This document shows, one piece after another, positions 1 through 5,541 of a DNA stretch of 64,000 nucleotides. The notes beneath the pieces are model-generated. The model saw nothing but the letters and a program-made list of their open reading frames with translations. It searched no databases and was not told the DNA's origin. Origin of the DNA: Ignavibacteriota bacterium (GTDB taxonomy: Bacteria; Bacteroidota; Ignavibacteria; SZUA-365); NCBI GenBank assembly GCA_016218045.1, contig JACRFB010000040.1, positions 124,001 through 188,000 on the forward strand, given 5' to 3'. The position numbers were made by a program, and so were the translations under genes. Numbering within the stretch: position 1 is the first letter of the stretch; every line of letters begins with the position of its first letter.

Positions 1-480
1 GAGGAAATCCTCCGCAAGGAGAAGGAACTCGAGGCGAACATCATCAAGCCGGCCGAGGCGCGCAGGGCGCAGATACAGTCCGAGGCCGAGGCCGAGAGCT
101 TCCGCGTGGGCAAGGAATCCGAAGCACGCGCATCCGCGCGGGCGCGCGAGAATGCCGTCGAGGCCGAACGTATCAAACTGCTGGGCGCCAGCGAAGCCGA
201 CGCGATGAAGGAAAAGGCGAAGGCCTACGAGCAGTACAACCAGGCCGCCATGTACCAGATGATCGTCGACATTCTTCCCGAACTGACAAAGAACGTGGCC
301 GAACCGCTTTCGCGCATCGACAAGATCACCCTTATCGGCGGCAGCGACGGCAAGCTCGGCACGTCGCAGATCACCGGACAGATCGCCGATGTGTTGTCGC
401 AGGTTCCCGAAGTTGTCAAATCGCTCACCGGAGTCGACCTCGCCAAATATCTGCGCGAGAAACTCGGCGGAGAGGCCTGA
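1..480 (+). CDS. Flotillin / SPFH-domain protein, C-terminal part (cut by window edge)
   Basis: The reading frame is open from base 1 and ends at a TGA; the N-terminal SPFH domain lies outside the window. The visible 159 residues begin with a long Ala/Glu/Arg-rich heptad-like stretch (EEILRKEKELEANI, then AEARRAQIQSEAEAE), typical of the flotillin coiled coil. A conserved-looking tail follows with MYQMIVDILPELTKNVAEPL and IDKITLIGG, as in flotillins such as FloT/YuaG. Flotillins form membrane-associated oligomers in lipid microdomains. Function here is inferred from the family. The next gene starts 105 bases downstream. Confidence 0.85.
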   Translation, partial: EEILRKEKELEANIIKPAEARRAQIQSEAEAESFRVGKESEARASARARENAVEAERIKLLGASEADAMKEKAKAYEQYNQAAMYQMIVDILPELTKNVAEPLSRIDKITLIGGSDGKLGTSQITGQIADVLSQVPEVVKSLTGVDLAKYLREKLGGEA

Positions 481-585: not shown

Positions 586-2922
586 GTGACCGCAGATAGA
601 ATCAACCTCATCGGAACCTCCCCCACCCTGAAGGTGGACGCCAAGGCCAAGGCCATGCGCGAGGAGGGAATCGACGTCGTGAACCTGAGCGTGGGCGAGC
701 CGGACTTCCCGACACCGCGCCACATCAGTGATGCGGCGAAGAAGGCCATCGACGAGAATTTCACCAAGTACACCGCGAGCGAAGGCATACTGCCCCTGCG
801 CAAGGCCATCGCGCAGCAGGTGAAGGACGAGTGCGGACTCGAGTACGAACCGTCGCAGATCATCGTCTCGAACGGCGCAAAACATTCGCTCTACAACGCG
901 ATGATGGCGCTCGTGAACGACGGCGACGAGGTGATCATTCCCGCGCCGTACTGGGTCTCGTATCCCGAGATGGTGAAACTCGCAAACGGCACGCCGGTCA
1001 TACTCAAGACGCGCGAGGAGGACGGCTTCCGCCTGAATCCCGACGCGCTGCGCGACACCATCACCGCGCGCACGCGCGCCGTGTTCCTCAACAACCCGTC
1101 GAATCCGACGGGCGGCGGCTACACGCGCGAGGAACTCGAGGCCATCGCCGATGTGATCGTGTCGGAAGACATCTACGTCATCGCCGATGAGATCTACGGC
1201 AAGCTGATGTACGACTCGCTCAAGTTCACACGCTTCGCGACACTCGGACCCGAGGTGAAAAAACGCACCATCACCATCGACGGCGTCTCGAAGGCCTATG
1301 CCATGACCGGCTGGCGCATCGGCTGGGCGGCGGGACCGAAGGACGTCATCGCGGCGATGGCGAAGGTACAGAGCCACGCCACGTCGAATCCAAGCTCCAT
1401 TTCGCAGCGCGCCGCGCTCGAGGCGTACAAGGGTCCGCAATACGAAATCTCGAAGATGGCGGCCGAGTTCGAAAAACGCCGCAACTACGTCGTGTACAAA
1501 CTGCAGAGCATCCCCGGCGTGTCGTGCCCGATGCCGCGCGGCGCCTTCTATGCGTTCCCGAACGTGTCGTCGTACTACGAAAAGGAATTCGAGGGCGTGC
1601 CGATACGCAACAGCTACGGCATGGCGTACTACCTGCTCAAACACGCGCACGTGGCGATCATCGCGGGCGAGGCGTTCGGTTCGGACGAGTTCATCCGCAT
1701 CAGCTACGCGACCTCGATGCAGAATCTCGAGAAAGGCCTCGCGCGCATCACCGATGCCCTCGCAAAACTGAAACCCGCGCCAAAACGCAAGCTCATCCGT
1801 CTCGCCAATACCGAAACCGTCGTGAAACACGAGGCACCGGTGGATGCGAAGGTGACGATCGAACGGCGCGATGCGCTGGTGGCCGAAGCCGAGGCGCATC
1901 TCCACTATTCGAGTTACCACGAGTGGAACGCGAACATCAACGGCATGATCGTGCAGCTCCGCACGAATGTCGCCCACTTGTACGACTTCTGGATGGAGAA
2001 CTGGTATCCAGCGCAGCTCGAATCCGACATCGAACCGCACGGAATCATCTACGCCGTCGACGGTGTGACCGGACGCGAGCCGCACGCCTTCTATAATTCC
2101 GACACAAAGACGGGCCTGCTCTTCAACTGCGACCATTACGGCTCGCTACGCTCGCTCGCGCTCGGCCTCACGACCGACGTGGCCGAACGGCTCTTCGACG
2201 TGCACGGTGTGCGCTGTATGTCGCTCGACATCAACGGCGCCGGCGCGCTGTTCATCGGACCCTCGGGCACAAAAAAGACCGAGCTGGTGTGGCGCATCCT
2301 TTCCGAGGAACCCGCCGCGGCACTACACGGCACCGACTACGTGTTCCTGCGTCACGGCGGCGGCATTGCGGCCGCCGACAATCCCGAGCGCAAGCTCTAC
2401 ATCCCGACCAACACCACGGCCGCGTACGAACCACTCGCGCGTCTCTTCGACAAGAGCAAGTGCGAGAACGTGACGATGAAGCCCGAGGATTGCCGGAACG
2501 AAACACACAAGCTGACGGATTCGTGTCCGCTCAACAGCGGCGCGCCGTACAGCTACGACTGCGCAAAAAAGAGCCACGCGATGCTCGATCCGTACTGGAT
2601 CGGCGGCATGAACCGCCATGTGAAACGCATCGACACGCGGTTTGTCTTCATCCTCCGCAACGATCCCGTAACAACGGCCGCGCAGAAGCTCGACGCCGAA
2701 GACGCGATGCACATCATCGAAAACGGTTATCCCGCAGGCGCCTCGGGCGGCAAGCAGGAGCCCTTCTACAACCCGCATCTGCTCTCCGCGGGCAGCGAAC
2801 GCAGCGAACTGCAGAAACGCTCCTTCAACAAGCTTTTCCGCGCGGCCGACGTGTGGCAGCTCAATGTCGGCTCGAGCACACTTACGGAACTGACACGCAA
2901 AGTGCTCGACCTTGTAAAGTAG
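586..2922 (+). CDS. Class I/II aminotransferase fused to an HPrK/PEPCK-like P-loop domain
   Basis: 778 residues from a GTG start with GGAAG about 10 bases upstream. Residues 1 to about 395 are a complete PLP aminotransferase of the aspartate aminotransferase type: LSVGEPDFPTP, NNPSNPTGG, ADEIYG, and SKAYAMTGWRIGW with the likely PLP lysine K236. After a short Pro/Lys linker, about 380 more residues form a second domain. Its motif MSLDINGAGALFIGPSGTKK (from about 545) resembles the start of the HPr kinase/PEPCK nucleotide-binding fold. The P-loop is unusual: GPSGTKKT (558-565) has Lys where the second Gly of GxxxxGK[ST] is expected. The next gene is itself PEPCK-like, so a joint role around oxaloacetate/aspartate/PEP is a reasonable inference. 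What the second domain phosphorylates or binds is unknown. No frame break was seen at the junction. Confidence 0.85.
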   Translation: MTADRINLIGTSPTLKVDAKAKAMREEGIDVVNLSVGEPDFPTPRHISDAAKKAIDENFTKYTASEGILPLRKAIAQQVKDECGLEYEPSQIIVSNGAKHSLYNAMMALVNDGDEVIIPAPYWVSYPEMVKLANGTPVILKTREEDGFRLNPDALRDTITARTRAVFLNNPSNPTGGGYTREELEAIADVIVSEDIYVIADEIYGKLMYDSLKFTRFATLGPEVKKRTITIDGVSKAYAMTGWRIGWAAGPKDVIAAMAKVQSHATSNPSSISQRAALEAYKGPQYEISKMAAEFEKRRNYVVYKLQSIPGVSCPMPRGAFYAFPNVSSYYEKEFEGVPIRNSYGMAYYLLKHAHVAIIAGEAFGSDEFIRISYATSMQNLEKGLARITDALAKLKPAPKRKLIRLANTETVVKHEAPVDAKVTIERRDALVAEAEAHLHYSSYHEWNANINGMIVQLRTNVAHLYDFWMENWYPAQLESDIEPHGIIYAVDGVTGREPHAFYNSDTKTGLLFNCDHYGSLRSLALGLTTDVAERLFDVHGVRCMSLDINGAGALFIGPSGTKKTELVWRILSEEPAAALHGTDYVFLRHGGGIAAADNPERKLYIPTNTTAAYEPLARLFDKSKCENVTMKPEDCRNETHKLTDSCPLNSGAPYSYDCAKKSHAMLDPYWIGGMNRHVKRIDTRFVFILRNDPVTTAAQKLDAEDAMHIIENGYPAGASGGKQEPFYNPHLLSAGSERSELQKRSFNKLFRAADVWQLNVGSSTLTELTRKVLDLVK

Positions 2923-2957: not shown

Positions 2958-2987
2958 CTGCATTAGATAGCATGATTCACCTCCGAA

Positions 2988-3043
2988 CTCCCAGCTCCTA
3001 GCTCCTAGCTCCCAGCTCCTCGATCCTAACTCCCAGCTCCTCT
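2988..3043 (+). repeat. Eight pyrimidine-rich heptamers (CTCCYAG type)
   Basis: Eight 7-base units in perfect register: CTCCCAG three times, CTCCTAG twice, plus CTCCTCG, ATCCTAA and CTCCTCT. The array ends 26 bases before the ATG of the PEPCK-like gene, so it would form the untranslated leader of that mRNA if the two genes are cotranscribed. Confidence 0.8.
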
Positions 3044-3069: not shown

Positions 3070-4920
3070 ATGGCCAAAGACATCTTTGACGTTCCGTACT
3101 ACGACAAGTTCTACGAAGAACTTCAGGACGCCCTCAAAGGTCCGAACATCCGCGAGGTCGACATCAAGTGGCTCGAGCCGCGGGCGCGGGAGTTTGCGCA
3201 GAAGACGGCGAACGGGTCACACGTGTGGCACTCGGTGCAGAGTTCGCGCCTGGCCGGCAAGACGGTGTATCTCGGGACGGAGCGTGTGCGCCTGCCCATC
3301 ACCACGCCCGAGCAGGACAAGATCATCAAGAACGCGCCGGAGGAATTGAAGAAGGTGCTCGTGTGGCTGCGCACGCTTCCCTTCGTGAAACTGACGCGGC
3401 AGATGGGCGACAATCCCGATTTCAATCCGACCTGCACGATCTACACCTGCGTGAAGGATCCGCGCAACATCCGTCTGCCGTACATGTGGGGCAGTCTGCT
3501 CTTTGATCCCGCGGGACGTCCGGGACCGAACATCACGATGATCCACATCCCCGAGGAGCACACTTCGCGGCAGCAGATCCTCACGATGCCCGAGTACAAC
3601 CTGAACATCTGCCTCGGCTCCGACTATCTCGGCGAGGAGAAAAAGGGCTTCCTGCGCCAGGCCATGTGGCTGGCGGACGAGAAGGGCATGCTCGGTCTGC
3701 ACGCGGGTTCGAAGGTGGTGGTTGCACGCGACGCGCGCACGAACGAACTCAAGAAGTACGGCGTGATCCTCTTCGGCATGACGGCGACGGGCAAGAGCAC
3801 GTGGAGCTGCCATCAGCTCGGCATGGATCACAAGCGCGGCGAGATGACGTACGTGTCGCAGGACGACATCTGCTTCCTGAAGGACGACGGATCGGCCTAT
3901 GGCAGCGAGGCGAACTACTATGTGAAGACCGACATCGTGAAGGACCAGCAGGAGGCGATGTGGCACTCGCTGGTCGACAAGAGCGCGCTGTTGGAAAACG
4001 TGATGGTGACAGCCGACGGAGCCATACAGTGGCTCGACGAATCGATGTGCGGCAACGGCCGCGCCGTCATCCGCAAGGACAAGCTGGCGGTGGAACGCGA
4101 CGGCAAACTGCTGTCGATCATGGCGAAGACCATCAACCTCCCGCCGCTCGACGAAACCGACGGGCTCATCTTCGCCTTCATCACGCGCCGCAACACCATC
4201 ATGCCCTTCGCGCAGAAGCTCACACCCGAGCAGGGCGCGCTGGCCTATCTGTTCGGCGAGAGCACGCTGAGTTTCGCCGCGAATCCGCTGAAGGCAGGCG
4301 AGTCCGTGCGCATCGTCGGCACCGACGACTTCATCATCGGCAGCCGCGCGCGCAAGGTGAACCGCTTCTACGACATCGCGATGAAACTCTCGACGCGCTA
4401 CCCCGGCAAGGTGCACTTCATGATCTACAACACCGGTGGCATGGGTGAGATCATCGAGACGCACGAGGAGAACGGCAAGACCGTCAAGAAACTCATCCGC
4501 AAGACCGACCGTGTGCCTCTCGATTTGATGGCGGCCATACAGCGCGGCGACCTGCGTGGCACGAACAAGTACGAGAAGGGTCTGCTCGGCACGCTCGAGA
4601 TCGTGGAAGCCGACGGGCGTTCGCTCGACGAGTGGAATCCGCGCAAGCTCTACACGCCCGAGCAGCTCGACTATTATGTGAAGGATCTGATCCAGGGCCG
4701 CCGCGCCTTCCTCGAGGAAGTGGCGCGCGAAGGTCTGCGTCCCGAAATCATCGCCGCCGCCGAGCGCGGCTTCCGCGCCATGGGCGAGAAGAAGGCGCCC
4801 TCCGTCGCTGTCGGCGCCGGCTTCTCCACCGCGCCCGCGCCCGCCGATCCGCGCATCATCGTAAAATCCGACGAGCCCGTCGCGCGTCCCCGCAAGCCGG
4901 GCGTGTGGCGCTGGCGTTAG
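3070..4920 (+). CDS. Divergent phosphoenolpyruvate carboxykinase (ATP-type family)
   Basis: 616 residues. The P-loop GMTATGKS (236-243) corresponds to the PEPCK kinase-1a motif. VSQDDICF and the following EANYYVKTD match the kinase-2 region (classically DD then GGCYAK). FITRRNTIMPFAQKLTPEQG followed by YLFGES resembles the family's LTPEQ...Y.F.SG.T segment. Classical ATP-PEPCK is about 530-540 residues, so this is longer and clearly divergent. The family interconverts oxaloacetate and PEP with ATP, at the entry to gluconeogenesis. The C-terminus is a Pro/Ala-rich tail. It follows the aminotransferase fusion on the same strand after a 147-base spacer filled with short repeats. PEPCK superfamily membership is well supported; substrate specificity is less certain. 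Confidence 0.8.
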   Translation: MAKDIFDVPYYDKFYEELQDALKGPNIREVDIKWLEPRAREFAQKTANGSHVWHSVQSSRLAGKTVYLGTERVRLPITTPEQDKIIKNAPEELKKVLVWLRTLPFVKLTRQMGDNPDFNPTCTIYTCVKDPRNIRLPYMWGSLLFDPAGRPGPNITMIHIPEEHTSRQQILTMPEYNLNICLGSDYLGEEKKGFLRQAMWLADEKGMLGLHAGSKVVVARDARTNELKKYGVILFGMTATGKSTWSCHQLGMDHKRGEMTYVSQDDICFLKDDGSAYGSEANYYVKTDIVKDQQEAMWHSLVDKSALLENVMVTADGAIQWLDESMCGNGRAVIRKDKLAVERDGKLLSIMAKTINLPPLDETDGLIFAFITRRNTIMPFAQKLTPEQGALAYLFGESTLSFAANPLKAGESVRIVGTDDFIIGSRARKVNRFYDIAMKLSTRYPGKVHFMIYNTGGMGEIIETHEENGKTVKKLIRKTDRVPLDLMAAIQRGDLRGTNKYEKGLLGTLEIVEADGRSLDEWNPRKLYTPEQLDYYVKDLIQGRRAFLEEVAREGLRPEIIAAAERGFRAMGEKKAPSVAVGAGFSTAPAPADPRIIVKSDEPVARPRKPGVWRWR

Positions 4921-5073: not shown

Positions 5074-5541
5074 GTGACAAAAACGAACGCGCTTAGAATC
5101 CTCGACGCGCACGGTGTTGCCTACGACGCCGTCGAGTACGACGTCGACGAAGACGCGCTCGACGCGGTTTCCGTCGCCGTGAAAATCGGCGCCGAACCCG
5201 AGAGTGTGTTCAAGACGCTTGTGGCACGGGGCGACAAGACGGGGCTGTGTGTGTTCGTGATTCCGGGACCCTTCGAGCTGAACCTGAAAAAGGCCGCAGC
5301 GGCCAGCGGCAACAAGAGCGTGGAGCTGATACACCTGCGTGAACTCACACCACTCACGGGCTACGTGCGCGGCGGCTGTTCACCCATCGGCATGAAGAAG
5401 CAGTACCCCACGTGGATCGACGAGACCGCGCAGCTTTTCGATCGCATCTACGCCAGCGCCGGCCAGCGCGGCTTGCAGATGTTTCTCGCCCCCGCGGATC
5501 TGCTCGGTGTTGTCGGCGCGGAGTGGGCGGATTTGTGTTAA
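5074..5541 (+). CDS. ybaK: Cys-tRNA(Pro)/Cys-tRNA(Cys) deacylase, YbaK/EbsC family
   Basis: 155 residues from a GTG start, the normal length for the family. The N-terminus (TNALRILDAHGVAYDAVEY), the central VFKTLVARGD and GLCVFVIPG segments, LNLKKAAAASGNKSVELI, and the GYVRGGCSPIGMKK block are hallmark YbaK sequences, including the conserved lysine and GxxSPxG region. YbaK proteins hydrolyse mischarged Cys-tRNA(Pro) in trans. The assignment is from sequence pattern. A hairpin with a T-run lies about 100 bases downstream. Confidence 0.92.
   Translation: MTKTNALRILDAHGVAYDAVEYDVDEDALDAVSVAVKIGAEPESVFKTLVARGDKTGLCVFVIPGPFELNLKKAAAASGNKSVELIHLRELTPLTGYVRGGCSPIGMKKQYPTWIDETAQLFDRIYASAGQRGLQMFLAPADLLGVVGAEWADLC

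Follow-up and report, generated by a model that had tools for sequence, protein, structure and literature searches.

Several well-described protein families meet at the locus reported here. Class I aspartate aminotransferases (AATs), exemplified by 1j32, 6f35 and the Thermus AspAT, are about 370-475 aa long in their solved relatives. ATP-dependent PEP carboxykinase (PEPCK; PckA, PF01293) and HPr kinase/phosphorylase (HprK, PF07475) belong to a common superfamily. Bacterial flotillin (FloT) operons encode a protein with Band_7 and Flot domains, and bacterial flotillin genes are usually partnered by NfeD. In the 4.77-Mb, 72-contig genome of an Ignavibacteriota bacterium, the upstream gene is likewise a Band_7 plus Flot protein, but the flotillin's partner is a class I AAT extended by a C-terminal PEPCK-fold domain (CTD) that has the appearance of a pseudo-PEPCK. 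All of these components are of known kinds; what is new is the way they are combined, together with the pseudo-PEPCK and the link to flotillin. Searches of the open-access literature turned up neither the fusion nor an operon that unites flotillin, PEPCK and AAT. The window referred to throughout is the whole 64,000-nt stretch that was analysed (G000:C40:124001-188000), and its relevant features are the following.

1..480, + strand: flotillin (SPFH/Band 7 plus Flot), of which the C-terminal 159 aa lie in the window (Pfam Flot, 1.7e-8)
586..2922, + strand: AAT::pseudo-PEPCK fusion protein, 778 aa, GTG start, single ORF
586..1779, + strand: class I AAT domain, residues 1-398 (Pfam, 7.7e-78; PDB 1j32, 6e-110)
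1780..2922, + strand: CTD, 380 aa, residues 399-778, PEPCK-fold and apparently catalytically eroded (AlphaFold2, Foldseek, hhalign)
3070..4920, + strand: divergent ATP-PEPCK-like protein, 616 aa (Pfam PEPCK_ATP, 9.2e-23; NCBIfam NF006821, 2.2e-79; hhalign with canonical PEPCK, 1.3e-12)

Results

A transaminase and a PEPCK-type domain in one reading frame

A preliminary description of this DNA had proposed that an aminotransferase is joined in one frame to a domain of the HPrK/PEPCK type, and the single ORF from the GTG at 586 to the stop at 2922 bears this out. An assembly join or frameshift is ruled out because the same fusion recurs across independent assemblies of several phyla. The search for the architecture in other genomes, proposed as a check, found both domains in one unbroken ORF of about 775-810 aa in assemblies of Ignavibacteria, Calditrichota, Aminicenantes/Acidobacteriota, Zixibacteria and TA06, and querying with the CTD recovered full-length fusions with Holophagales/Acidobacteriota among the host groups. 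Altogether the fusion is present at more than 35 loci in many bacterial phyla. Within the phylum to which the window belongs, 3 of the 395 genomes carry it, as do 23 of 199 Acidobacteriota genomes at E < 1e-90. All 35 fused rows of the tree form one group, and because the support for this grouping is weak to modest (86/53), descent from a single fusion event is likely rather than proven. Two placements appear doubtful and are probably binning errors: a contig labelled Ectothiorhodospiraceae (L005) carries a fusion 67-79% identical to that of the window, and the truncated fusion of L067/L087, binned as Thermoplasmatota, sits inside a bacterial clade of the tree.

Like the solved class I enzymes, the transaminase half is complete and motif-intact. 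Pfam Aminotran_1_2 (PF00155) matches residues 30-388 over profile positions 2-361 of 361 and hence covers the whole enzyme, and the window protein retains the PLP lysine (SKAYAMTGW) together with ADEIY, NNPSNPTG and FIRISYA. The Lys of SKAYAMTGW, the Asp of ADEIY (pyridine N) and the Arg of FIRISYA (substrate carboxylate) are kept in 17/17 fused proteins. The best of 87 NCBIfam models for this half is NF004769 (aspartate transaminase PRK06107); its 449 bits fall below the curated equivalog cut-off for aspartate transaminase (617), so that substrate specificity is something we infer. The closest other AAT relative in the same genome is merely 33% identical.

The C-terminal domain has a PEPCK-type fold

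No library model in Pfam or NCBIfam describes the CTD, which, used alone as a single-sequence query, gave no Pfam match above the cut-off and none in the PDB. It takes the family profile to reach HPrK (2qmh, 2.3e-5) and PEPCK (1ii2, 2.3e-4) structures there. In profile-profile comparisons with hhalign, the CTD family aligned with canonical PEPCK over 318 columns (E 2.2e-12), and it also matched the family of the neighbouring PEPCK-like protein (E 3.3e-10). AlphaFold2 gave a confident model of the CTD when supplied with a 56-sequence alignment (pLDDT 93.5, pTM 0.91; pLDDT 31.5 from the single sequence). The Foldseek search that had been suggested with it returned an ATP-dependent PEPCK as the best match (E 4.6e-17, query-normalised TM 0.75), and the top 50 matches listed were PEPCK throughout, without HprK. 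The HPrK model TIGR00679 scored 0.081 with the CTD alone, which is below threshold. The earlier assignment to an HPrK/PEPCK-type fold stands for the superfamily and not for HPrK specifically; by model and profile, the CTD is predicted to be a reduced PEPCK fold. Compared with PckA it is about 130-150 residues shorter, follows a transaminase in the same chain and has neither an intact Walker A nor the intact His, DD and Arg. HprK is matched by profile in the P-loop region, but the fused CTD is without HprK-type catalytic residues.

Across phyla, CTDs are about 36-73% identical to that of the window. Several residues (N74, Y120, N331 and N362) are the same in every one of the 56 sequences, whether fused or not, and Y120 aligns with the PEPCK substrate-site Tyr. 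An insert at residues 228-260 (nt 2461-2559), also present in long archaeal forms, carries up to five mostly kept Cys, with C238 and C249 found in >90% of fused forms. A metal site is possible and is not claimed here, as these Cys are absent in L005, partly shifted in the window, and several of them are missing from some members.

Unfused archaeal relatives retain an active site that is eroded in fused domains

Thermoplasmatota encode free-standing long relatives of the CTD, with open frames mostly of 407-472 aa, and shorter forms without the insert around CTD residues 229-261. The shorter PEPCK/HPrK-like proteins (about 320-350 aa; L077-L086, L099 and L101) occur in many Thermoplasmatota genomes and have an intact active site with the P-loop APSKTGKTT or APSGTGKTT. 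By sequence, unfused forms match both PF07475 (HPr kinase C; 1.4e-5 in L097, below the curated cut-off) and the PEPCK model NF006821 (9.6e-8), which ties the CTD family to the HPrK/PEPCK superfamily; they have the HG, GxxGxGK and DD motifs in common with HprK. When the window's proteins were compared by tblastn with the stretches examined around the unfused forms, no AAT, PEPCK-like or flotillin hit was obtained. One of the long forms is flanked instead by genes for an MFS transporter, a MarC protein and a methyltransferase.

The active-site columns were read across an alignment of 21 unfused archaeal and 35 fused domains, and the window differs from the unfused forms at the following sites.

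2212..2214, + strand: Arg at the site of the catalytic His (HPrK HG / PEPCK metal ligand), which is His in 21/21 unfused forms
2257..2280, + strand: degenerate Walker A GPSGTKKT, with Gly replaced by Lys before the Walker Lys (K166 of the CTD; Thr is T167)
2332..2337, + strand: Thr-Asp at the Asp-Asp site (column comparison)
2575..2577, + strand: His at the position of the PEPCK substrate/phosphate Arg (R333-type), which is Arg in unfused forms (hhalign, columns)

In the window's CTD, the ATP-PEPCK metal-ligand His, DD pair and substrate Arg are thus absent, as are the HPrK catalytic His and GxxGxGKS P-loop. Walker A (GxGKT/GKTT), DD, the His of HG and Arg are intact in all 21 unfused relatives, a point that the preliminary description had missed, and the PEPCK kinase-1a P-loop GxxGTGKT is likewise intact in 21/21 of them and in 0/35 fused domains. 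The Lys-for-Gly change noted earlier is real and typical of one branch of the fused family, a 25-row clade (support 100/99) with GTKKT, GTHKT, GTNKT or GTRKT and, in L015, GTGKQ. Elsewhere Walker A reads GTGRS (L014), GTGKA (L016) or GMGRG (L059), and an Acidobacteriota clade has Gly-x-Gly-Arg-Thr types such as GSGRT. The sites of the His, first Asp and Arg are for the most part altered in the main clade, which retains the Walker Lys and Thr and one Asp. The deep-branching fusion L014 (4783-7218) keeps His, DD and Arg, from which the loss looks stepwise; L014 and L059, deep-branching and with partly intact active sites, are useful intermediates in this respect.

Lineage-specific damage to Walker A in an otherwise conserved domain is the pattern expected of relaxed catalytic constraint, and a pseudo-PEPCK is the best reading of the CTD. 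The loss appears specific to the fused domain because the AAT motifs and the catalytic residues of the PEPCK-like protein (16/16, see below) are intact. The sensor or phosphotransfer function proposed in the preliminary description survives in its first half: a sensor or docking role is possible, and the CTD is unlikely to carry out phosphotransfer, since Walker A is broken in every fused domain examined and no common catalytic set survives among the fused lineages. Some nucleotide binding is still conceivable in the GTKKT clade, where the Walker Lys and Thr remain.

A PEPCK is a recurrent neighbour of the fusion

The PEPCK-like gene reported immediately after the fusion is indeed of the PEPCK_ATP type (81.1 bits against a cut-off of 26.5). 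NF006821 (PRK09344.1-3, a PEPCK subfamily) matches its residues 39-553 and also all 16 relatives; at 267 against a curated cut-off of 369, the protein is a divergent relative and no formal member. The catalytic positions Tyr, Lys-Lys, His, GK[ST], DD and Arg are kept in 16/16 relatives, with the P-loop TATGKS carrying Ala in place of one Gly and the Arg65-type residue (R60) matched by motif only. These residues suggest a working PEPCK.

In 21 of 36 loci the PEPCK-like gene adjoins the fusion or lies within 5 kb of it, in more than one arrangement: directly after it on the same strand in 17 and on the other strand within about 5 kb in 4. Among 199 Acidobacteriota genomes, 17 have both genes, 6 the fusion only, 4 the PEPCK-like gene only and 172 neither (Fisher p 3e-16, uncorrected for kinship). 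One of the four PEPCK-like-only genomes (G545) has flotillin and the PEPCK-like gene on one contig, and its fusion may simply be absent from the assembly. The fusion and the PEPCK-like gene do not form an exclusive pair everywhere, because one Acidobacteriota clade keeps the fusion without this partner. Different PEPCK types fill the same slot, as GTP-PEPCK is present in 5 of the 6 fusion-only Acidobacteriota genomes and a classical ATP-PEPCK lies about 3.5 kb from the CTD of the fusion in G267. That genome also has a separate class I transaminase gene before the classical ATP-PEPCK with a stop/start overlap (L021 411-3277), a second, unfused AAT-PEPCK pairing. Some PEPCK was found in 16 of the first 17 fusion genomes, the exception being a 1.5-Mb bin (G404). 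The genome of the window has no ATP-PEPCK-family member besides the PEPCK-like gene, and no GTP-PEPCK was found there. This gene is not always the only PEPCK, since five fusion genomes also carry a classical ATP-PEPCK, and it may act on a different substrate.

A flotillin gene lies upstream of nearly every fusion

The most constant neighbour, also missed by the preliminary description, is the flotillin gene. It lies immediately upstream of the fusion on the same strand, with 27-186 nt between matches, in 34 of 35 testable loci (34/36 overall; L015 was left out for too little upstream sequence), and the link holds across several phyla and divergent branches. The one testable exception, G267, is without flotillin upstream of the fusion and has no close flotillin in its whole genome. 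In the window's genome the whole gene (G000:C40:123089-124477; L020:3089-4477) encodes 463 aa with Band_7 (1.9e-25) and Flot (2e-7) domains. The gaps beside the fusion gene (497-523 and 2982-3042) contain 7-nt/21-nt tandem repeats with CTCCTAG/CTCCCAG-like and ACTCCTT units, perhaps intergenic repeats of a mobile-like kind. A YbaK/tRNA-edit family protein (PF04073, 5.9e-24) is encoded after the PEPCK-like gene at 5074-5541, with the same neighbour in L004.

Discussion

The features described above suggest to us an aspartate-oxaloacetate-PEP module, in which an active AAT carries a dead PEPCK domain that couples it to a PEPCK in the vicinity of a flotillin scaffold; we give this reading a probability of roughly one half. 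According to this view, the fusion protein would be an active aspartate (dicarboxylate) aminotransferase whose PEPCK-fold domain has no phosphotransfer chemistry of its own. The AAT half would convert aspartate and 2-oxoglutarate to oxaloacetate and glutamate, and PEPCK would then take oxaloacetate to PEP, or the flux may run in reverse. The dead domain would most likely serve as an adaptor or allosteric domain that couples the transaminase to PEPCK, either by pairing with an active PEPCK subunit or by binding a PEPCK ligand, and the flotillin encoded upstream may hold the assembly at the membrane. A more ambitious version, which we offer tentatively and with the odds against it, is a widespread and hitherto unrecorded membrane-associated assembly in which the pseudo-PEPCK docks on active PEPCK and passes oxaloacetate between the enzymes under the organisation of a dedicated flotillin.

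The main rival holds that the CTD is purely an allosteric sensor of the transaminase and does not physically touch PEPCK or flotillin: one of the PEPCK ligands, be it oxaloacetate, PEP, CO2 or a nucleotide, would bind in the old active-site cleft and adjust transamination. The conservation of N74, Y120, N331 and N362 throughout the 56 sequences, with Y120 at the substrate-site Tyr position, fits such a sensor, as does the persistence of the fusion in genomes with unrelated PEPCK types. We nevertheless consider it unlikely, as it leaves the near-invariant flotillin linkage and the PEPCK-like linkage unexplained. These linkages weigh in a similar way on a further possibility, namely that the clustering reflects history or operonic convenience, that PEPCK and flotillin are unrelated neighbours and that the CTD is a structural relic stabilising the transaminase dimer. 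Function is not provable from gene order alone, and the apparent single origin of the fused domains would accord with inheritance of this kind. The retention of the flotillin link across phyla and divergent branches argues against it, however, and so does the behaviour of the PEPCK-like gene, which changes position or strand in L014, L104, L105 and L106 yet stays local, so that we judge this explanation decidedly unlikely.

Least probable, in our estimate, is that the CTD has stayed active, as a nucleotide-dependent enzyme or a phosphotransferase whose P-loop is unusual, GTKKT for example binding nucleotide in a new way. The residues retained by the main clade and the strong conservation of the domain speak in its favour. 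Other fused lineages, however, have dispensed with the Walker Lys (GTGRS, GSGRT, GMGRG) or the Ser/Thr (GTGKA, GTGKQ), and the main clade itself is mostly without the His, first Asp and Arg.

If the proposed aspartate-oxaloacetate-PEP module exists, it would tie a PEPCK and a pseudo-PEPCK to an enzyme of amino-acid metabolism at oxaloacetate, the node at which cells balance nitrogen against gluconeogenesis and the TCA cycle. The unfused archaeal and fused bacterial forms together provide a natural series of active-site loss after fusion, repeated and in different ways. Furthermore, the clients of bacterial flotillins are mostly unknown, and the strict linkage described here offers a specific and directly testable candidate client. 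Should the membrane assembly prove true, it would represent one of the rare instances in prokaryotes of central-carbon enzymes assembled on a flotillin scaffold.
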